From contig JALHST010000117.1 of assembly GCA_022865355.1 (NCBI GenBank), positions 1 through 45,765 on the forward strand: a stretch of DNA of 45,765 nucleotides, in the 5' to 3' direction. Position numbers and translations under genes: made by a program. This document shows positions 29,952-38,334 of this stretch, piece by piece. Positions within the stretch are counted from its first letter, which is position 1. The number at the start of each line of letters is the position of its first letter. Source of the DNA: Maribacter sp. (GTDB taxonomy: Bacteria > Bacteroidota > Bacteroidia > Flavobacteriales > Flavobacteriaceae). Below the pieces are notes generated by a model, which was given only the letters and a program-made list of their open reading frames with translations, made no database searches and was not told the origin of the DNA.

Positions 29952-30950
29952 TTACAGCACCATCAAATTACAGCCCCGTATATCTGAATTGTCAAATCGT
30001 CCCAATATTTCAAAACGGCCATCGGCCTGCATTTTGCCCAAATCTTGGGTCGCAATAAATGCGCAGGAGTTCAAATTGGCCAGATCGATGATGTTGATTC
30101 CTCCGGTTTTGTTACGGTCTTGGGGTGTCAAGGGGTCTTCAGTATCCCGAATTCGTACTTGCATCCACGGCGGGGTCTTAAAAATACCATCTCCTTCTGA
30201 ATATGCCTGAGACAATAATTCGGTCATCCCATATTCAGAATGGATCCGAGAAACACCGAAGCCCTCTTTAAGTAGGCCATGCAGTTCCTCGCGGATCATT
30301 TCCTTCCTTCGTCCTTTCATTCCCCCCGTTTCCATAATGATGGTATTTTTCAAATTGAATTGAAATATTTCCACCAGTTCCAGAAGGGCGAAAGAAACGC
30401 CGATTAGAAGTATTTTGGTGCCTGCTGCGTCAAGTTTCAACAACTTTTTGGTTAAACTGTCCAAATCATTTAATTGAAAACCACTTTCGGGATGACCGCT
30501 TCGTTTTATGAGATCATCTACCATATACACCAAGGAAGAACCTTGACGTTCCAAGTAAGAAGGCAGTAAGGCCAAAATGCAGTATTCCGATACTAGGCCA
30601 TAGAAATATTGAAACCCCTGTAAGTAACTTTGTCTATACAATTGCACATTGGTAACATAATGAAAGCTGGTGATGCTTCCCGTTGTGCCGCTGCTTGTAA
30701 AGACCATCTCGGGCTTGGCAACTCCCGAAACGACATTTTTCGATTTAAAAAAATCTATCGGCAAAAAGGGAATTTCCTGAAGTGCCGACACGTTTTTTTC
30801 AGTTTTACCCAAATACCTGCAAAATTTATGATACACTGGGTTATTCCTGAATTGATATCCATATATTTTCAAGGCACATTGCTCAAATTCCAATTGAGAG
30901 GTAATTTCAAAGATGGTAGCAGCGTTGAACATCATCCCAAAAATAACCAT
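29952..30950 (-). CDS. LuxE-like acyl-protein synthetase/acyltransferase
   Basis: This 332-residue protein resembles the LuxE acyl-protein synthetase domain, part of the adenylate-forming superfamily. Supporting motifs are IPFLPIDFFKSKNVVSG, the phosphate-binding loop MVFTSSGTTGSITSFHYV (about residues 83-100), METGGMKGRRKEMIREELH and RIHSEYGMTELLSQAYS. LuxE activates fatty acids for bioluminescence reductases, but no luxC, luxD or luciferase gene is here. A role in activating an acyl group for a flavobacterial lipid or pigment is only a guess. The start could be ATG 30950, 30935 or 30932; an exact TAttTTTG lies inside codons 2-5 of the longest version, favouring a shorter one. Confidence 0.72.
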   Translation of the reverse strand: MVIFGMMFNAATIFEITSQLEFEQCALKIYGYQFRNNPVYHKFCRYLGKTEKNVSALQEIPFLPIDFFKSKNVVSGVAKPEMVFTSSGTTGSITSFHYVTNVQLYRQSYLQGFQYFYGLVSEYCILALLPSYLERQGSSLVYMVDDLIKRSGHPESGFQLNDLDSLTKKLLKLDAAGTKILLIGVSFALLELVEIFQFNLKNTIIMETGGMKGRRKEMIREELHGLLKEGFGVSRIHSEYGMTELLSQAYSEGDGIFKTPPWMQVRIRDTEDPLTPQDRNKTGGINIIDLANLNSCAFIATQDLGKMQADGRFEILGRFDNSDIRGCNLMVL

Positions 30951-31035: not shown

Positions 31036-31356
31036 TTACTTCACTACTAATTTTCGGGTAATGGTCTTATTGCCTTCGGTAGCATGCAATACATAGACTC
31101 CGGGCACCAAACGTGAAATGTTCAAAGCGTTCGAAGTAACCCGCTCAGTAAGCACCACTTCGCCAAAAACATCATATACCAGGATGATTTTGGGCCCGTT
31201 CTCAGCACTGGTCATATAGACCACACTTTCATAAACAGGATTTGGATATAACTTGAATCCTGAAATCTCATCGTTTTGATTCTTTAGATTTCGTGGTTCC
31301 TGGGCAGAAAGCGCAATAGAAAACACCATGAATAATGCCAAGTAGATTATTTTCAT
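31036..31356 (-). CDS. Minimal T9SS type A sorting-domain protein, copy 1
   Basis: This 106-residue protein has a signal peptide (MKIIYLALFMVFSIALSAQ), a 15-residue linker and then only a T9SS type A C-terminal domain: FKLYPNPVYESVVYMTS...KIILVYDVFGEVVLTERV.SNALNISRLVPGVYVLHATEG..TITRKLVVK. Such domains direct proteins through the type IX secretion system, where the domain is usually cleaved. Here there is almost no cargo. It is homologous to the next upstream gene (31520-31828) and both are on the minus strand; a near-consensus -7 element (TATCTTTA, 31382-31389) lies 25 nt before the start. Function is unknown. Confidence 0.8.
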   Translation of the reverse strand: MKIIYLALFMVFSIALSAQEPRNLKNQNDEISGFKLYPNPVYESVVYMTSAENGPKIILVYDVFGEVVLTERVTSNALNISRLVPGVYVLHATEGNKTITRKLVVK

Positions 31357-31519: not shown

Positions 31520-31828
31520 TTACTTGACTATAAGTTTTCGGGTGGCCACCTTATTTTTCTCAAAAACGCGAAGTACGTAAACCCCCGCACCCAGATCGCT
31601 CAGATTCAACTCCGAACCGAGAAGGGTGGTTCGAAGCACCTCAGTACCTAACACATCAAAAATTAAAATCATTTTTGGGGCATTTTCACCGGTAATGATA
31701 AAGACCTTGCCATTGGTTACTGGATTTGGATACAACTTAAAACCATCAATTTCTCCATTCGGCTTTGATTCTTGACCGTAGCTAAAGGAGATAAAAAGAA
31801 GGGAAATTATAAGGTAAAGTTGCTTCAT
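31520..31828 (-). CDS. Minimal T9SS type A sorting-domain protein, copy 2
   Basis: This is a 102-residue paralogue of the previous protein. It has a signal peptide (MKQLYLIISLLFISFSYGQ), a linker of only about ten residues (ESKPNGEIDG), then FKLYPNPVTNGKVFIITGENAPKMILIFDVLGTEVLRTTLLGSELNLSDLGAGVYVLRVFEKNKVATRKLIVK. The NPV, the beta-rich middle and the KLIVK end fit T9SS type A sorting domains. It is separated from copy 1 by 163 nt of AT-rich sequence. An exact -7 element on the minus strand (31856-31863) lies 28 nt upstream. The pair appears to be a tandem duplication that has since diverged. Confidence 0.8.
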   Translation of the reverse strand: MKQLYLIISLLFISFSYGQESKPNGEIDGFKLYPNPVTNGKVFIITGENAPKMILIFDVLGTEVLRTTLLGSELNLSDLGAGVYVLRVFEKNKVATRKLIVK

Positions 31829-31967: not shown

Positions 31968-34796
31968 TTAGAATTTTAGACTATATCCTACCGAGAAGGC
32001 CCTGCCGGGATGTCTTTTGTAAAATAATTGGTTTTGTGCCCCAAAAGATTCATATTGGCTTTCTACATCATCATTCAAAAGGTTGCTAACCTTAAGGTTG
32101 ATACTCTGATTTTGATTTTCCCCGAATGATTTGGTCAAATTTAAATAGAGGTTGTTAAAGGGCATGGTATAGACATCGGGTGCGAAGCCTGTTCCAACCA
32201 CCTCCAAAGTTTTTCCTTGAACGTTATAAAACAGTCCCATTTGAAGGCCTTTCTCGACTTGACTATAATTGATGCTGGCATTGATGAGAAAAGGCGACTG
32301 GCCTTGAAGTGTCCTATCATTTCCCAAGGTTTCCCCGTCCCTGAGGCCCAATTGCCTTAACGTACGTTCTGCATCACTGTACACCTGGGTCGATTTAATG
32401 ATAGACGTATTCACATTGAGGCTGAAATTATTGAAGGCGTTCGCGATAAAACCTAAATTTTTGCGAAGTTCGAACTCCACGCCCAGTACATTGGCATTAC
32501 CCAGGTTCCGAGGGGTAAAGTTATCAAATGAATTTTCAAAATAGGTAAGTTCAATAGGATCCTTAAATGATTTGTAGAAACCGCTCAAGGCAATCATTTC
32601 GGCACTTTCGCCAAACCATTCCATTCTAAGGTCAAAGTTATCGATATAGGTGGGCTGAATGTCTATATTCCCTATAAAGGTTACACTTGACAAAGGGTCG
32701 AAAATTTTAGCGATCGAAGCTTCCTTGAACGAAGGTCTTGCCGTGGTGTGGGCATAGGAACCCCTAAGATTCATTTTGTCGGTCAACTCATAGATGAGGT
32801 TGGCGGTCGGAATAAAATCAAGTTTGTCAAGAATTTTCTGATCATCATAGATTACCTTTTGGGGATCATTAATATCCTTATTGTCCTCACCGGTATATCT
32901 CGTCTGAAAATTTTCCCATCGCAGACCCACTATTGTTCTCAAGCGGTCGCCGATCTTAAATTCATTTGATGCATAGGCCGCGATATTGCGTTGTTTGGCA
33001 TTGTAGGTATTGGCCGGTTCGGCAATTGATATGTCAGGATCAATAAAAGTGCCTGAATCATTGGAAACCGTCCATAGGTTTTCAGGGGCCAGAATGTTGT
33101 CGGCAATACCGTCGAATACCGTGGTGTTTTTATTGCTCTGTATCTCGAAGTTCAAGATACTAAAATCCCGTTTTTTAAAACTGCCATAGGCGCCGAACAG
33201 CAACTTGGCCTCTTTTTTATCTAAAAAGTATTTTCTTGTCACATCCAATTTTGATACGGCGTCGATTTCTTCTAAATTCCTCCAGATTCTTTTGGGCTGA
33301 TTGTTTTGTTGAAAGGAATAAATGCCATCATCGATCCGAAAGGCGGTCGTTCTGATATCCTTGTCCCTAATTTGGGAATAGGTCGGTGACAACGACCATT
33401 CGGTCGACCAGGAAGCATCGCCATTGGTGTGGGTTCCTGTGAGCAGGCCATTGCTAATGGAGCGCTGGGTGTATTCCAGGTTGTCTTTCTTAAAATCGAT
33501 AAAATCGGTAAAATTTAGGGTTTGATTGAACAAGCCGGCCGTCGATTCACCGTTTTGTAAATGCAGTAGATTAAGCTTGTATTTCGACTTTTTGGTTTTA
33601 AAGGAAGTACCTAAAAGCCCACTTACCAGTACATCATTGCTTCCAATATCACCTTTCTGTGTCCGATTGGTCAACAATTCGAAAATGGCCGGGTCGGGAT
33701 TTCTCCGATAAAAATTATTCTCGGCATTTTCGTAAAAAGTGGTACTGTTCTTATAGGAAAAAGAACCTAAAAAACCCAAGCGGTTTTCCCCTTGGCCCAC
33801 ATTGTATTGATTGCCTGCAGTAAATCCGACGCTATAGTCCATGAAACTGGTACTTCTCAATGCAGAAAGTACCGGACTAAATTGCTTTGTGATGGCGGTA
33901 AGCCTAGGATCATAATCGAAGGTATTGGGAATATCCTGTTTTCTATTGATGGGTACATCCCGGGTACCATCATCAAACCCTAGAAAATCGGTGCCGCCCC
34001 CTTTATAATCCAAATAGTTGCTATTAAAATGCATTTCGGGATTGTAAGATCCGCTCAATGATAGACTGTATTCTTTCTTTGTAGGATAATCTTTGGTCAC
34101 AATATTTACAATGCCCCCTGTAAAATCGGCAGGTAGATCGGCAGACGCCGATTTTAATACCAAAACATTGTCAATGATATTCGTTGGGAAAATATCCAAT
34201 TGTATGGTGTTACGATCCGGATCCAAGCCAGGTATGTCGATACCATTTAAAATTGATTTGGTATAACGATCCCCCAAGCCTCTGACATATACATATTTTC
34301 CACCTTGAACCGAAACGCCAGGGACACTCTTAATGGCGTTGGCAACGTCACCCGCCCCTGATTTTTTAAAAGCCTCCGCCGATAGACCATCTAAGAGGTT
34401 GACGGCCTTTTTTTGAATCCCCAATACGGCAGTCTCCGTATTTTTTTTGACACTCACCGCGATAACCACTTCATCGAGGCCCTCCGCCAATGTTTCCATC
34501 GTAACATTTACCGTAGTTACCTCCCCTGGTTTTACCACTACATCGGTAATCTCGACGGTTTTATAACCCAAATAGGAATAGGAAACCGTGTAGGTACCCG
34601 CATCTAAAGCGAGGGTATATTTGCCATCAAAATCGGAAGTGGTCCCTTTCGTGGTTCCTTTTATCACGATATTGGCAAAGGGTACCGGATCCTGAAAATC
34701 GGCATCTTTCAGGGTTCCCGTTACTTCGCCTTGTTGGCCCCAGCTCAGTTGGGATACGAATGCAATTAAAGTTAAAAGCTTAAAATGTAGTTTCAT
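31968..34796 (-). CDS. TonB-dependent outer-membrane receptor
   Basis: This 942-residue protein has a signal peptide (about residues 1-20, ending SQLSWGQ), then a carboxypeptidase-regulatory-like beta-sandwich (about 21-112: GEVTGTLKDADFQDPVPFANI, TTSDFDGKYTL, YSYLGYKT). A plug domain follows (about 140-245, with AIKSVPGVSVQGGKYVYVRGLGDRY and LPADFTGGIVNIVTKDYP), then a 22-strand-type barrel ending GRAFSVGYSLKF. It imports a ligand across the outer membrane using TonB energy. There is no SusD-like partner, so it is not a classic glycan locus. It follows the Cys-rich lipoprotein gene by 91 nt with a hairpin between. Ligand unknown; the PhoBR-like genes next door suggest phosphorus or another regulated nutrient. 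Confidence 0.9.
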   Translation of the reverse strand: MKLHFKLLTLIAFVSQLSWGQQGEVTGTLKDADFQDPVPFANIVIKGTTKGTTSDFDGKYTLALDAGTYTVSYSYLGYKTVEITDVVVKPGEVTTVNVTMETLAEGLDEVVIAVSVKKNTETAVLGIQKKAVNLLDGLSAEAFKKSGAGDVANAIKSVPGVSVQGGKYVYVRGLGDRYTKSILNGIDIPGLDPDRNTIQLDIFPTNIIDNVLVLKSASADLPADFTGGIVNIVTKDYPTKKEYSLSLSGSYNPEMHFNSNYLDYKGGGTDFLGFDDGTRDVPINRKQDIPNTFDYDPRLTAITKQFSPVLSALRSTSFMDYSVGFTAGNQYNVGQGENRLGFLGSFSYKNSTTFYENAENNFYRRNPDPAIFELLTNRTQKGDIGSNDVLVSGLLGTSFKTKKSKYKLNLLHLQNGESTAGLFNQTLNFTDFIDFKKDNLEYTQRSISNGLLTGTHTNGDASWSTEWSLSPTYSQIRDKDIRTTAFRIDDGIYSFQQNNQPKRIWRNLEEIDAVSKLDVTRKYFLDKKEAKLLFGAYGSFKKRDFSILNFEIQSNKNTTVFDGIADNILAPENLWTVSNDSGTFIDPDISIAEPANTYNAKQRNIAAYASNEFKIGDRLRTIVGLRWENFQTRYTGEDNKDINDPQKVIYDDQKILDKLDFIPTANLIYELTDKMNLRGSYAHTTARPSFKEASIAKIFDPLSSVTFIGNIDIQPTYIDNFDLRMEWFGESAEMIALSGFYKSFKDPIELTYFENSFDNFTPRNLGNANVLGVEFELRKNLGFIANAFNNFSLNVNTSIIKSTQVYSDAERTLRQLGLRDGETLGNDRTLQGQSPFLINASINYSQVEKGLQMGLFYNVQGKTLEVVGTGFAPDVYTMPFNNLYLNLTKSFGENQNQSINLKVSNLLNDDVESQYESFGAQNQLFYKRHPGRAFSVGYSLKF

Positions 34797-34887: not shown

Positions 34888-36288
34888 TTAAAATCCTAAA
34901 CTTGCTTTTGCGTTGGTATAGGTCCAGCTAAAAGCACTGGTATCGGCTCCAACAGTTTCAGCGCCTTCGGTAACTTGGCTTGTCCAAGCGGCAGCTCTTG
35001 TTGGCAAATCAGGATTTAGGATAAGCGGGCTTTCACCGGTTCCAACGGCTTCTTGGAAAATTGCCGCATCGGCTCCAACCACTTCCCAGTTGTTGAAGAT
35101 CAACAAACCATCCAAAAAGTTTTGGGCCACACTGTTGCCATTGATCCGAACAATCGATGTTGCCGCAAAATTAAGGGCATATATATTTTCAACGGTTCCT
35201 CTGGCGCTGCTCCTAAAATCTGCATATTTATTGCTCGGGGCCACCATGCTGCCAATGAGGGTAACATTTCTCATAATGAAGGATGCATTGGTAGATCCTT
35301 CCCCGCCGTCGATTTCCAGGTCACTATCCTGAACGTCCCCTGCAATTACGATGGCATTGTCAATCGTTCCGGAATACGCCTGATCAATATCCAAGCCGTC
35401 ATCTCCTCCAGCCCAACATAGCAGGTTGGTAGGGTTTACAGTTCCTCCAAAGAATTCAATACCGTCATCTACATTACCAACGATTTCGATATTGTCGATG
35501 GTAGTGCCCGAGCCTACGGCTCCTAAGGTTAATCCGTTAATTTCGTTGCCTTCCCCGATCAAAGCGCCCCCATGACGAATGGAGATATATTTTAAGGTAC
35601 CAGAATTATCGGCATCGTTCAGCGCATCCCCTGGGCCATACGTACCAAAGGTATCCTCTGCGGGAATTCCTTCGATTTGATATTCGGTCACATCGCCAGG
35701 CAAGGAAGCCGAGGCTCTACCCAAAACCAAAACTCCGCCCCACAAGCCACGATCGTTCTCGTCCAAATTGGTGCCCGCTGTTTGGCCTACCGCAATATTG
35801 TCGTCTTCCGCCGTAAAAATTATTGGCTTGTCCGCGGTACCTACGGCCTCTATTTTTGAATCCCGTTGAACAATCAATGCCGAAGCCAAGGAACCAGAAC
35901 CTGGGGTTCCTTTTATTATGGTGCCAGGTTCAATGGTCAAGGTCACCCCAACCCCGACAACGACTTTTCCCGCAAGCTTATAGATATTGTTGGCGGTCCA
36001 TGTAGTATTTGTACCTATTTCACCTGAAACGGTTATTATTTCAGCACAAGACCCACCAAAGTCGATTCCGGTCTCGTCGCCATTTTGTATCCCATCATTA
36101 CAGGTAGCAGCTACCGGGGAACAGGGTTGGCAGTTGGGGCCGCCACAATCGATCTCGGTTTCGCCTTGATTCAAGATACCGTCATTACAGGTGGCCAAAG
36201 GCTCGATAACGACCGGTTCGTCATTATTTTTGCATGAAGTAACCACCATTGCACCGATTGCAAAACCAGCTAAAATAAGTTTTTTCAT
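34888..36288 (-). CDS. Cys-rich, probably beta-helical lipoprotein
   Basis: This 466-residue protein has a lipoprotein signal (MKKLILAGFAIGAMVVTSC, lipobox VTSC, lipidated C19). Next come two short Cys-type repeats: CNDGILNQGETEIDCGG (from C34 to C56) and CNDGIQNGDETGIDFGG (from C63 to C81). The second has lost an internal Cys (F for C). The remaining ~380 residues show repeating Gly/Asp/Asn-rich strands (GVTLTIEPGTIIKGT, LKYISIRHGGALIG, IDNIEIVGNVDDGIEFFGG, DDGLDIDQAYSG), typical of a right-handed parallel beta-helix. It should be anchored in the outer membrane, possibly on the surface. It is transcribed just before the TonB receptor and divergent from the PhoB-like gene; a ligand-capturing partner of the receptor is a reasonable inference. 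Confidence 0.8.
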   Translation of the reverse strand: MKKLILAGFAIGAMVVTSCKNNDEPVVIEPLATCNDGILNQGETEIDCGGPNCQPCSPVAATCNDGIQNGDETGIDFGGSCAEIITVSGEIGTNTTWTANNIYKLAGKVVVGVGVTLTIEPGTIIKGTPGSGSLASALIVQRDSKIEAVGTADKPIIFTAEDDNIAVGQTAGTNLDENDRGLWGGVLVLGRASASLPGDVTEYQIEGIPAEDTFGTYGPGDALNDADNSGTLKYISIRHGGALIGEGNEINGLTLGAVGSGTTIDNIEIVGNVDDGIEFFGGTVNPTNLLCWAGGDDGLDIDQAYSGTIDNAIVIAGDVQDSDLEIDGGEGSTNASFIMRNVTLIGSMVAPSNKYADFRSSARGTVENIYALNFAATSIVRINGNSVAQNFLDGLLIFNNWEVVGADAAIFQEAVGTGESPLILNPDLPTRAAAWTSQVTEGAETVGADTSAFSWTYTNAKASLGF

Positions 36289-36350: not shown

Positions 36351-36358
36351 CAAAGAAA
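36351..36358 (-). promoter_or_regulatory. Near-consensus -7 element of the lipoprotein operon
   Basis: On the minus strand the sequence reads TTtcTTTG, one mismatch from TAnnTTTG, about 62 nt before the lipoprotein start. The 11-bp repeat array begins 19 bp upstream of it, at 36378. Confidence 0.4.
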
Positions 36359-36377
36359 CCCACAACTTGTGAAGGTG

Positions 36378-36432
36378 GTGTTACCTGGCTATTAAACCTC
36401 TATTGTTATAGTGTTATCATAGTGTTACCATA
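36378..36432. repeat. Five tandem 11-bp units, candidate PhoB/OmpR-type binding array
   Basis: The units are GTGTTACCTGG, CTATTAAACCT, CTATTGTTATA, GTGTTATCATA and GTGTTACCATA, in exact 11-bp register. T at positions 2, 4 and 5 is invariant, A at 6 occurs in four of five, and position 3 is G or A. The last two units together resemble the E. coli Pho box (two 11-bp CTGTCATAAAT-type repeats). The array lies between the divergent lipoprotein and PhoB-like genes. An 11-bp period is the known spacing for tandem binding of OmpR/PhoB-family regulators. Which promoter it serves is open: it is near the lipoprotein -7 element, but the units read toward the regulator gene. The rest of the 36289-36592 gap holds only promoter-like elements. 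Confidence 0.6.
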
Positions 36433-36474
36433 TTAAATCAACGTTAAGTACTTTATAAGTAACCGTATTATCTT

Positions 36475-36482
36475 TACATTTG
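36475..36482 (+). promoter_or_regulatory. Promoter -7 element of the PhoB/PhoR-like operon
   Basis: TAcaTTTG is an exact consensus match 110 nt before the ATG at 36593, giving an unusually long leader for this window. Confidence 0.5.
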
Positions 36483-36592: not shown

Positions 36593-37279
36593 ATGAAAAA
36601 AAGTGAAATACGGATACTTTTAGTAGATGATGAATCAGATATCCTCGAAATTGTTAGCTATAATCTTAGCGAAGAGGGCTATCAGGTATTTACGGCCAAA
36701 AACGGCGTGGAAGGCGTGGCCAAAGCCAAAAAGAAGTTGCCGCATTTGATTATTATGGACGTTATGATGCCAGAAATGGACGGGATAGAAGCGTGTGAGA
36801 CAATTCGTAAAACCCCAGGACTTGAAAATACCATCATCACCTTTCTCACGGCCCGAGGGGAAGATTATTCCCAGGTGGCCGGTTTCGATGCCGGGGCCGA
36901 TGATTATATTACCAAACCTATAAAACCAAAGGTTTTGGTGAGTAAGGTGAAATCGTTGTTGCGACGCTTGAAGGAGGAAGATACCGCCAATGAGGACATT
37001 GTTAAAGTAGGAAATATTGTAATCAACCGCGAAGAATACAAAATTATCAATAATGGTAAAGAAATCGTACTTCCACGGAAGGAATTTGAACTATTGGCAC
37101 TGCTCACTTCCAAACCGAATAAGGTTTTCAAACGTGAGACCATTCTCGATAAGGTTTGGGGCAGCGAAGTGGTGGTCGGTGGACGCACGATCGACGTACA
37201 TATTCGAAAACTTCGTGAGAAAATAGGCGATGACAACTTTAAGACAGTAAAGGGAGTAGGCTATAAGTTCGTTCTGTAA
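36593..37279 (+). CDS. PhoB-like response regulator (OmpR family)
   Basis: This 228-residue protein has a receiver domain (about 1-122) with acidic pocket D12-D13, phosphoacceptor D56 in LIIMDVMMPEMDG, the Thr of FLTARGE and the Lys of ITKPIKP. A winged-helix effector domain follows (about 132-228) with LPRKEFELLALLTSKPNKVFKRETILDKVWG and VGGRTIDVHIRKLREKIG, ending KTVKGVGYKFVL. This is the OmpR/PhoB subfamily and closest in style to PhoB. It is coupled to the histidine kinase gene by a one-base overlap. The 11-bp repeat array upstream is the expected site type, so it probably controls the divergent lipoprotein/receptor genes and perhaps itself. Confidence 0.92.
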   Translation: MKKSEIRILLVDDESDILEIVSYNLSEEGYQVFTAKNGVEGVAKAKKKLPHLIIMDVMMPEMDGIEACETIRKTPGLENTIITFLTARGEDYSQVAGFDAGADDYITKPIKPKVLVSKVKSLLRRLKEEDTANEDIVKVGNIVINREEYKIINNGKEIVLPRKEFELLALLTSKPNKVFKRETILDKVWGSEVVVGGRTIDVHIRKLREKIGDDNFKTVKGVGYKFVL

Positions 37280-38334
37280 TGTCTATACGCTTAAAAAAAT
37301 CCTATAGGTTCGCTATTAGATCATCCCTATTGATTTCCCTATTTTCCTTTTTGATACTGTTATTTTTGCAATGGATCTATGACGTTTTCAATTGGTATTT
37401 CATCCTTATTTTCTTACTGCTTTCGTTCATAGCCTCCTTTTTATTGCTTCAGATTCGGATCGAGCGTTTCATATATCGCCGAATAAAAAAAATTTACGAT
37501 GATGTTGCCCTCTTGGAATCTTCCTCGCCTTCCTCGGGAACGATTACGACCGATATGCGCAGCTTGACCGAAGAAATCGAAAAATTTGCGCAGGGAAAGA
37601 AAATTGAGATCGATATCTTAAAAATTCGAGAAGAATATCGGCGTGATTTTTTAGGCAATGTTTCCCATGAACTGAAGACCCCATTATTTACCGTCCAAGG
37701 CTATATAGAAACCCTGTTGGATGGGGCCATGGAAAATAAAAATATCAGAAAAAAATATTTGCAAAGAGCTGCAAAAGGGGTAGATCGGCTCATCTATATC
37801 GTAAAGGATTTGGATCTTATCACAAAATTGGAGGTCGGTGACCTAAATCTAGAACGCGAGGATTTTGATATCATCGAAGTTATCGAAGGCGCTTTTGAGC
37901 TCTTGGAAATGAAAGCCGCAAAAAAGAAAATTGCCCTTACATTCGATACAGATTATATAAAACCGATCATGGTAAATGCAGATAAGGAAAAAATTCAGCA
38001 GGTACTTATCAATCTATTGGTCAATTCGATAAAATACGGTCATACCAATGGCACCACCGAAGTAAGCGTCGAAAACTTGATAAAGAACAAAATAATTGTT
38101 AGGGTTACCGATAATGGCGAGGGAATCCCCAAAAAGGATATCCCACGAATTTTTGAACGATTTTACAGAGTTGACAAAAGTGGTAGCAGAAGCGAAGGAG
38201 GCTCCGGACTCGGTCTGTCGATCGTAAAACACCTCATAGAGGCGCATAATGAGAAAATCTTTGTTGAAAGCGAGATAGGGGTAGGCTCCGAATTTTCATT
38301 TACCTTAGAAAAATCGAAAGTCCAAAACTCATAG
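37279..38334 (+). CDS. PhoR-like sensor histidine kinase
   Basis: This 351-residue kinase has two adjacent membrane segments (about 13-31 and 39-58) separated by only about seven residues, so it lacks a periplasmic sensor domain, as in PhoR. A 70-residue linker leads to the H box NVSHELKTPLFTVQGY (phospho-His H130), the N box QQVLINLLVNSIKYG, G1 VTDNGEGIPKKDIPRIFERFYRVD and G2 EGGSGLGLSIVKHLIEAH. No PAS domain is apparent. PhoR-type kinases sense phosphate status through the Pst transporter and PhoU rather than directly; neither pst nor phoU is in the window. The start ATG shares its first base with the end of the regulator's stop (TAATG). Confidence 0.9.
   Translation: MSIRLKKSYRFAIRSSLLISLFSFLILLFLQWIYDVFNWYFILIFLLLSFIASFLLLQIRIERFIYRRIKKIYDDVALLESSSPSSGTITTDMRSLTEEIEKFAQGKKIEIDILKIREEYRRDFLGNVSHELKTPLFTVQGYIETLLDGAMENKNIRKKYLQRAAKGVDRLIYIVKDLDLITKLEVGDLNLEREDFDIIEVIEGAFELLEMKAAKKKIALTFDTDYIKPIMVNADKEKIQQVLINLLVNSIKYGHTNGTTEVSVENLIKNKIIVRVTDNGEGIPKKDIPRIFERFYRVDKSGSRSEGGSGLGLSIVKHLIEAHNEKIFVESEIGVGSEFSFTLEKSKVQNS

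Follow-up and report, generated by a model that had tools for sequence, protein, structure and literature searches.

Introduction

The pho box bound by E. coli PhoB is built from 11-nt direct repeat units with a CTGTCAT core (PMC4415409, PMC10294691), and the Pho box of cyanobacterial SphR from tandem 8-bp repeats joined by 3-bp linkers, with the consensus CTTAACCT (PMC1906773). Putative Pho boxes have also been marked near plcP in marine bacteria (PMC4796936). Within Bacteroidota, phosphate-starvation genes are known for organisms such as F. johnsoniae and B. fragilis. The F. johnsoniae PhoBR cluster (PUSIV) is reported to respond to Pi depletion with FC values of 8.02 for the TBDT, 9.91 for the lipoprotein FII and 3.06 for phoB, with OprP and phoR listed as not significantly induced (FC -1.3 and 0.76); the FI-FIII lipoproteins of this organism were modelled as polygalacturonase-like and are distantly similar to a Caulobacter low-phosphate lipoprotein (PMC8115612). 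The term "Pho box" is absent from the text of that paper. B. fragilis PhoB binds the pstC promoter in a gel shift with a 512-bp fragment (PMC3547664), and TAnnTTTG is the -7 consensus of F. psychrophilum (PMC9723704), in a paper whose text does not name PhoB. We found no operator sequence or Pho-box motif for Bacteroidota in the open-licence PubMed Central papers searched.

Here we analyse a 45,765-nt stretch of a Maribacter sp. genome (contig JALHST010000117.1; hereafter the window), in which a 304-bp intergenic region separates an operon and a two-component system that are divergently oriented:

31968-34796, minus strand: TonB-dependent receptor with a CarboxypepD_reg domain, second gene of the lipoprotein operon
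34888-36288, minus strand: surface lipoprotein; N-terminal repeats rich in cysteine; right-handed beta-helix predicted at residues about 79-451
36593-37279, plus strand: PhoB-like response regulator with receiver and winged helix (domain search)
37279-38334, plus strand: PhoR-like sensor histidine kinase with HisKA and HATPase (domain search)

By gene content and predicted fold, this locus resembles F. johnsoniae PUSIV in placing PhoB-PhoR beside a TonB receptor and a lipoprotein of pectin-lyase-like fold, but the locus-tag order there is PhoB, TBDT, lipoprotein (PMC8115612), whereas here the lipoprotein comes first and is divergent from the regulator.

Results

Regulator, kinase and the divergent operon

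The regulator combines a receiver and a winged helix, is 35% identical to E. coli PhoB and carries an identical recognition-helix segment, RTxDVHIRxLR. It scores below the NCBIfam PhoB cut-offs (TIGR02154, 214 vs 296.2 bits; NF053854, 207.5 vs 270 bits), and we therefore refer to it as PhoB-like rather than as NCBI PhoB; the kinase is likewise PhoR-like, yet scores under the NCBI cut-off. With 38 first-look response-regulator-like candidates in its own genome, the regulator is nevertheless the sole match there at E<=1e-60, and exactly one match at this threshold was found in each of 53 of the 60 genomes compared.

For the lipoprotein, no Pfam or NCBIfam family was detected at E<=0.001. Its AlphaFold model (29 sequences, mean pLDDT 82.6) returned no Foldseek match at E<=0.001, and a second structure comparison retrieved beta-helix proteins (Z 18.7-21.7), the list being headed by phage tailspikes, NosD and alginate epimerases (best Z 21.7). 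On the predicted model the lipoprotein is a right-handed beta-helix; that the fold is shared proves no function. The receptor scored 62.8 bits against the TIGR04056 cut-off of 368.25, and with a partner lipoprotein lacking a Pfam family at E<=0.001 an assignment to SusCD/PusCD was rejected, in agreement with the view in the sequence-only reading that the locus has no SusD. In two relatives (L018 and L020, from genomes G030 and G011) two lipoprotein domains occupy a single open frame, of 795 and 825 aa.

Two tiny proteins are encoded on the minus strand of the window at 31520-31828 (102 aa) and 31036-31356 (106 aa), each consisting of a signal peptide and a type A T9SS sorting domain almost without passenger. 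Of 30 regulator loci, 13 have matches to such T9SS-tail proteins in the DNA around the PhoB-like gene, and a LuxE-like acyl-protein synthetase often accompanies them (10/30; at 29952-30950 in the window).

An array of 11-bp units in register with a -7 box

Five consecutive 11-bp units occupy positions 36378-36432 (GTGTTACCTGG/CTATTAAACCT/CTATTGTTATA/GTGTTATCATA/GTGTTACCATA) and share T at positions 2, 4 and 5 in 5/5 and A at position 6 in 4/5. The sequence-only reading had described these five units correctly, together with the 19 bp between the proximal unit and a -7-like box on the minus strand (TTTCTTTG), but its count fell short, since a sixth unit lies in register at 36362-36372 on the lipoprotein side (TCACAAGTTGT in lipoprotein sense). 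In an 81-base profile of the lipoprotein strand in relatives (see below), the 11-bp units begin at columns 1, 12, 23, 34, 45 and 56, and the -7 box TNTCTTTG falls at columns 70-77, in the same 11-bp register, leaving a gap of 9 bp between TTTACA and TNTCTTTG. Numbered from the distal end, the elements of the intergenic region are as follows:

36417-36427, minus strand: half-site 1 (TAACACTATGA, lipoprotein sense), profile columns 1-11
36424-36427, plus strand: GTTA of half-site 1, second member of the pair conserved at the regulator promoter
36406-36416, minus strand: half-site 2 (TAACACTATAA), in profile register
36413-36416, plus strand: GTTA of half-site 2, first member of that pair, 56 bp upstream of the regulator -7 box
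36395-36405, minus strand: half-site 3 (CAATAGAGGTT), degenerate, the weakest of the six across the 32 best upstreams
36384-36394, minus strand: half-site 4 (TAATAGCCAGG), TAA invariant in the 32 best upstreams
36373-36383, minus strand: half-site 5 (TAACACCACCT), TAAC invariant in the 24 model sequences
36362-36372, minus strand: half-site 6 (TCACAAGTTGT), TTTACA in the consensus of relatives
36351-36358, minus strand: putative lipoprotein promoter -7 box (TTTCTTTG; consensus TAnnTTTG), in the 11-bp array register
36432-36446, plus strand: ATTA-N7-GTTA, a further and weaker pair towards the regulator, seen in the sequence, 8 bp off the array register
36469-36482, plus strand: putative regulator promoter -7 region, TATCTTTA (36469-36476) overlapping TACATTTG (36475-36482)

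A search of both strands of the window found no other run of five consecutive TNTT units. Under a looser measure (any three invariant columns in five 11-mers), 28 of 45,710 plus-strand positions qualify, overlaps counted, and the array by itself is for this reason suggestive rather than compelling. Dinucleotide shuffles of the 304-bp intergenic region produced a five-unit TNTT array in 0/2000 cases, and in 1/500 a 5x11 array of any kind having three invariant columns plus a further column at 4 of 5.

Conservation in front of lipoprotein/TonB-receptor operons

Matches to the lipoprotein, many of them distant, were found in 72 of the 99 genomes searched. Upstream DNA was taken for 110 loci (30 from the genome set including the Maribacter genome itself, and 80 named contigs), from which ten were dropped as paralogous (L027-L030), as having <150 bp upstream (L046, L071, L105) or as near-duplicates (L044, L047, L067), leaving 100 non-redundant upstreams for the profile count; L014 was left out of the protein alignment A1. 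The 32 best of the 100 fit a single ungapped profile with a fixed distance to the -7 box, and in 32/32 the leave-one-out score exceeded those of all 30 of the upstream's own shuffles. Because these 32 were chosen by score, a selection-free spacing count was added: across all 100 upstreams, TAAC pairs numbered 69, 51 and 44 at spacings of 11, 33 and 44 bp, compared with an average of 3.9 for spacings outside the multiples of 11, and the 68 upstreams not chosen contained 34 pairs at 11 bp vs 2.2. This 11/33/44 pattern is what two strong pairs 33 bp apart yield. Flanking DNA of the same loci has a mild excess of TAAC pairs at 11 bp (81 vs 39), perhaps from other nearby boxes.

Judged from sequence, many Flavobacteriaceae have the array in front of lipoprotein/TonB-receptor operons, at a constant distance from the -7 box, so that the 11-bp register, whose loss in orthologous intergenic regions had been named beforehand as a refutation, is conserved in a large part of the orthologues. 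Two loci with a regulator beside the lipoprotein, L002 and L012, fit the profile poorly (scores 32.5 and 25.6). Outside Flavobacteriaceae, a Bacteroidales MAG (L101) has a very clean array upstream of its lipoprotein gene, with five TAAC units at exact 11-bp steps followed by AAAC and TACTTTTG.

Recurrence at phosphate-acquisition genes

A sequence-only array model (R1) was built from 24 promoters, 23 of them among the best 32 by rank and none outside that list, in which the TAA of units 4 and 5 is invariant. R1 scored a subset of the first-look candidates: 150 of the 2056 in the Maribacter genome and, with tighter filtering, 77 or 31 in each genome elsewhere. Match counts are therefore lower bounds, and its E-values are rough owing to a shortened calibration. 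In the own genome the top match was the window promoter itself, a training sequence (E 6e-15), and ranks two and three fell to promoters of the 4.4-kb contig C127 (E 1.2e-5 and 0.03), which carries the only PF12849 (PstS) match of this genome. One precedes a small CarboxypepD_reg protein and the other a phosphate-selective porin followed by the PstS gene; in both, 18 bases separate the last TAAC from the -7 TTTG, as between unit 6 and the lipoprotein box. The small protein (C127:3927-4343, minus strand, L151) is a secreted, CarboxypepD_reg-only protein of 138 aa that resembles the N-terminal domain of the TonB receptor, has its own array beside the porin-PstS genes and has relatives with arrays in other genomes. 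Matches 4-10 (E 0.17 to 6.2) lie in or beside genes without evident phosphate link and were treated as chance, and no array was evident by eye in about 230 bp upstream of PhoX. A further contig, C97, carries PhoU (Pfam), and the frames around it resemble pst permease, pstB and PiT genes. The absence of Pst genes stated in the sequence-only reading thus holds for the window but not for the genome, given the PstS-family gene on C127 and PhoU on C97. Similarly, a two-component system does adjoin the operon, but it is unlikely to be private to it, as the regulator is the sole E<=1e-60 match and the same box stands before porin-PstS.

Across the 60 genomes, R1 gave at least 41 matches at E<=0.001 in at least 27 genomes. 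Seven of the 41 in relatives are training promoters, and 33 of the 34 non-training matches precede genes for a TonB receptor (15), a small CarboxypepD_reg protein (11), a phosphate-porin (5), a lipoprotein (1) or PstS (1); some of these assignments were by sequence similarity, with Pfam run on ten examples. The lone exception in relatives (G072:C1:1491589-1491650, L181) is beside no phosphorus gene and has a putative 466-aa lipoprotein downstream. Matches occurred in 0/7 genomes without a close regulator orthologue vs 27/53 with one (one-sided Fisher p 0.011, uncorrected for kinship). Recurrence of the array at porin, PstS and PiT-type cluster promoters is established at the level of sequence, as are the array itself, its conservation and its -7 register.

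In a sample of the phylum, at least 23 of 148 genomes had an R1 match, and 125 had none at E<=0.001 with this Flavobacteriaceae-trained model. Among the 24 new loci, 18 lie ahead of genes for a receptor, a lipoprotein, a small CarboxypepD_reg protein (one, by resemblance) or PstS; L221 is weakly receptor-like, and L218, L220, L222, L224 and L227 are not near such genes. The same -7 register is seen in L225, with six TAA units before a PstS gene, and in L216, with five TAA units and one TTAC unit before a receptor. A claim of phylum-wide use of the array is weakened by these counts, and since the model was trained on Flavobacteriaceae-type promoters its silence elsewhere in the phylum means little.

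The promoter served and the pair at the regulator gene

Among the 32 best loci, the regulator gene adjoins the lipoprotein in seven (L001, L018, L020, L032, L034, L039 and L054), and the remaining 25 showed no regulator match in the surrounding DNA examined. Because the spacing from the array to the -7 box holds in loci without a regulator gene seen nearby, the lipoprotein-receptor promoter appears to be a client, and the possibility that the array serves the regulator alone was rejected, as it stays with the lipoprotein or receptor without a regulator gene near. The sequence-only reading had left the served promoter uncertain because the array seemed to point towards the regulator. That orientation follows from likening TGTTA to the E. 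coli TGTCA, but read as TTAAC, the cyanobacterial core, the array points to the lipoprotein. The fixed -7 spacing likewise indicates that the lipoprotein operon is served, with a pair of units kept at the regulator promoter as well. From the -12 to -5 position given for the -7 element (PMC9723704), transcription from each promoter would start about 5 bp downstream of its box.

For 30 of the 53 regulator matches the upstream DNA was examined for this pair. Because the distance to the -7 box differs by a few bases between loci, and because some of the upstreams were misplaced, an ungapped profile described the regulator promoter poorly. A simple pair count was used instead: GTTA-N7-GTTA stands before the regulator gene in 27 of the 30 genomes (shuffles, mean 0.7, maximum 4) and is absent from L130, L132 and L140. 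In 24 of the 30 loci 52-57 bp separate the pair from a following TATCTTTA-like -7 box whatever the neighbouring gene, the pattern of these TATCTTTAC-like boxes having been picked by eye on the same sequences. Steps between GTTA elements like those that the weaker second pair of the window makes with the array also recur, at 8 bp in 3/30 and at 19 bp in 10/30 of these upstreams. In the window, the regulator pair consists of units 1 and 2 of the array. Where the divergent gene encodes a lipoprotein or receptor, the pair lies 73 bp before the TTTG of that gene in six of nine pair loci, as in the lipoprotein profile (present in L111, L112 and L115-L118; absent in L134, L136 and L139), whereas with other neighbours a divergent TTTG in array register was found in one of 18 loci with the pair (L138). 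The spacing of 52-57 bp irrespective of neighbour, together with this 1/18, points to the pair probably being kept for the regulator's own promoter, with the intergenic region of the window sharing it between both promoters. The pair at the regulator gene suggests autoregulation.

Discussion

We propose that the array is very probably a Pho box that is bound by the adjacent PhoB-like regulator under phosphate limitation and serves the lipoprotein/TonB-receptor promoter. Pho boxes have two or more direct repeats with an 11-bp period directly upstream of a -10 or -7 box and recur at phosphate-acquisition promoters including pst; here there are six units, the profile gap to the -7 box is 9 bp, and the array returns before PstS and porin genes. 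According to this model, when phosphate is short the phosphorylated regulator would occupy the six TTAAC-type half-sites, all 11-bp direct repeats, as tandem subunits, covering the expected position of a -33 element 9 bp ahead of the -7 box. From there it would recruit RNA polymerase to the promoter of the lipoprotein and TonB receptor. The distal two half-sites keep an almost constant distance to the regulator -7 box and would probably serve phoB-phoR autoregulation. We infer binding, a phosphate response, activation rather than repression, and autoregulation. Judging by its context, the receptor would take up phosphate or an organic phosphorus compound. The earlier view of a PhoB-type array at a putative regulated outer-membrane uptake locus holds up on these comparisons.

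The array shares with the cyanobacterial SphR Pho box its 11-bp period, the TTAAC core printed for gene upstreams and a presence at pst genes, but differs in having six repeats, compared with at least three there, and in a register fixed to the Bacteroidota -7 element TAnnTTTG (PMC1906773). Like the E. coli pho box, it consists of 11-bp direct repeats about 10 bp before a -10-type box and is associated with a regulator of the same recognition-helix segment, with phoB and pst promoters among the targets; unlike it, the core is TTAAC rather than TGTCA, there are six half-sites and the sigma element is another (PMC4415409, PMC10294691). A Bacteroidota PhoB directly upstream of pst genes is also described for Bacteroides fragilis, with no motif defined in the portion of that report drawn upon here (PMC3547664). 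Overall, the TTAAC core is closer to the cyanobacterial than to the E. coli Pho box. A comparable case is the Bacillus subtilis PhoP box, which consists of TT(A/C/T)ACA repeats and has in common with the array TTAACA/TTTACA repeats at an 11-bp period. The locus most likely presents, as far as sequence can indicate, a Bacteroidota Pho box of known general kind but of its own layout, with six TTAAC half-sites in -7 register.

That the array is a chance run was rejected and seems to us barely conceivable: the intergenic DNA is AT-rich, the short half-sites are common and loose arrays occur elsewhere in the window, but the window search, the TAAC spacing count and the absence of such an array from all 2000 shuffles speak against it, as do conservation and recurrence at phosphate genes. 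It is also improbable that the array is the site of another OmpR-family regulator, its location at phosphorus genes then reflecting a second phosphate-linked regulator. Each genome offers many response-regulator-like candidates for such a role, but the adjacent regulator is the single close match in nearly all of the 60 genomes, has the same half-sites upstream of its own gene in 27/30, and R1 matches in those 60 genomes were seen only where it is present. Slightly less probable still is repression of the lipoprotein-receptor promoter by the array-bound regulator. Half-sites 5-6 overlap the region of the expected -33 element, E. coli PhoB is a dual regulator (PMC10294691), and deletion of a PhoR-like two-component system in Riemerella, which may be a different system from that of the window, raised pstS 8-fold (PMC5399024), a rise that fits poorly with simple activation. 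Nonetheless, the array stands about 10 bp before the -7 box, as activating E. coli boxes stand 10 bp before the -10 (PMC1906773), and the counterpart genes in F. johnsoniae rise on Pi depletion (PMC8115612).

Unlikely, but deserving more weight than either of these, is the alternative that the array serves the lipoprotein-receptor operon alone, with the pair serving whichever gene is divergent and the regulator not autoregulated. Nearly all sampled regulator genes do have a divergent neighbour, and in the subset beside small T9SS-tail proteins TTTG is found 67-71 and 79-83 bp away on the divergent side, which would allow another geometry; in cyanobacteria, moreover, autoregulation is said to be not general (PMC1906773). 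Conversely, the distance of the pair to the regulator -7 box (a pattern set by eye) is kept in 24/30 loci with any neighbour, the 73-bp step to the divergent TTTG is seen in 6/9 pair loci with a lipoprotein or receptor neighbour, vs 1/18 with a divergent TTTG in array register beside others, and F. johnsoniae phoB itself rises on Pi depletion (PMC8115612). We retain a Pho box probably shared with the regulator promoter as the preferred explanation.

A defined box and a profile for genome scans would allow others to predict the Pho regulon in this phylum and to test it. Through the array, beta-helix surface lipoproteins of one family, with their TonB receptors, are linked to phosphate control even where no regulator gene is adjacent, and it offers a ready test of how a large group of bacteria senses phosphate hunger. 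More tentatively, and with rather less than even confidence, the six-site PhoB array may represent a conserved Bacteroidota design, in which three dimers stacked in one 11-bp register run straight into the -7 box and the two far sites are shared with a divergent phoB promoter. If so, one regulator filament would turn on the outer-membrane phosphorus receptor together with the regulator's own production, and the response would be sharp and self-amplifying.
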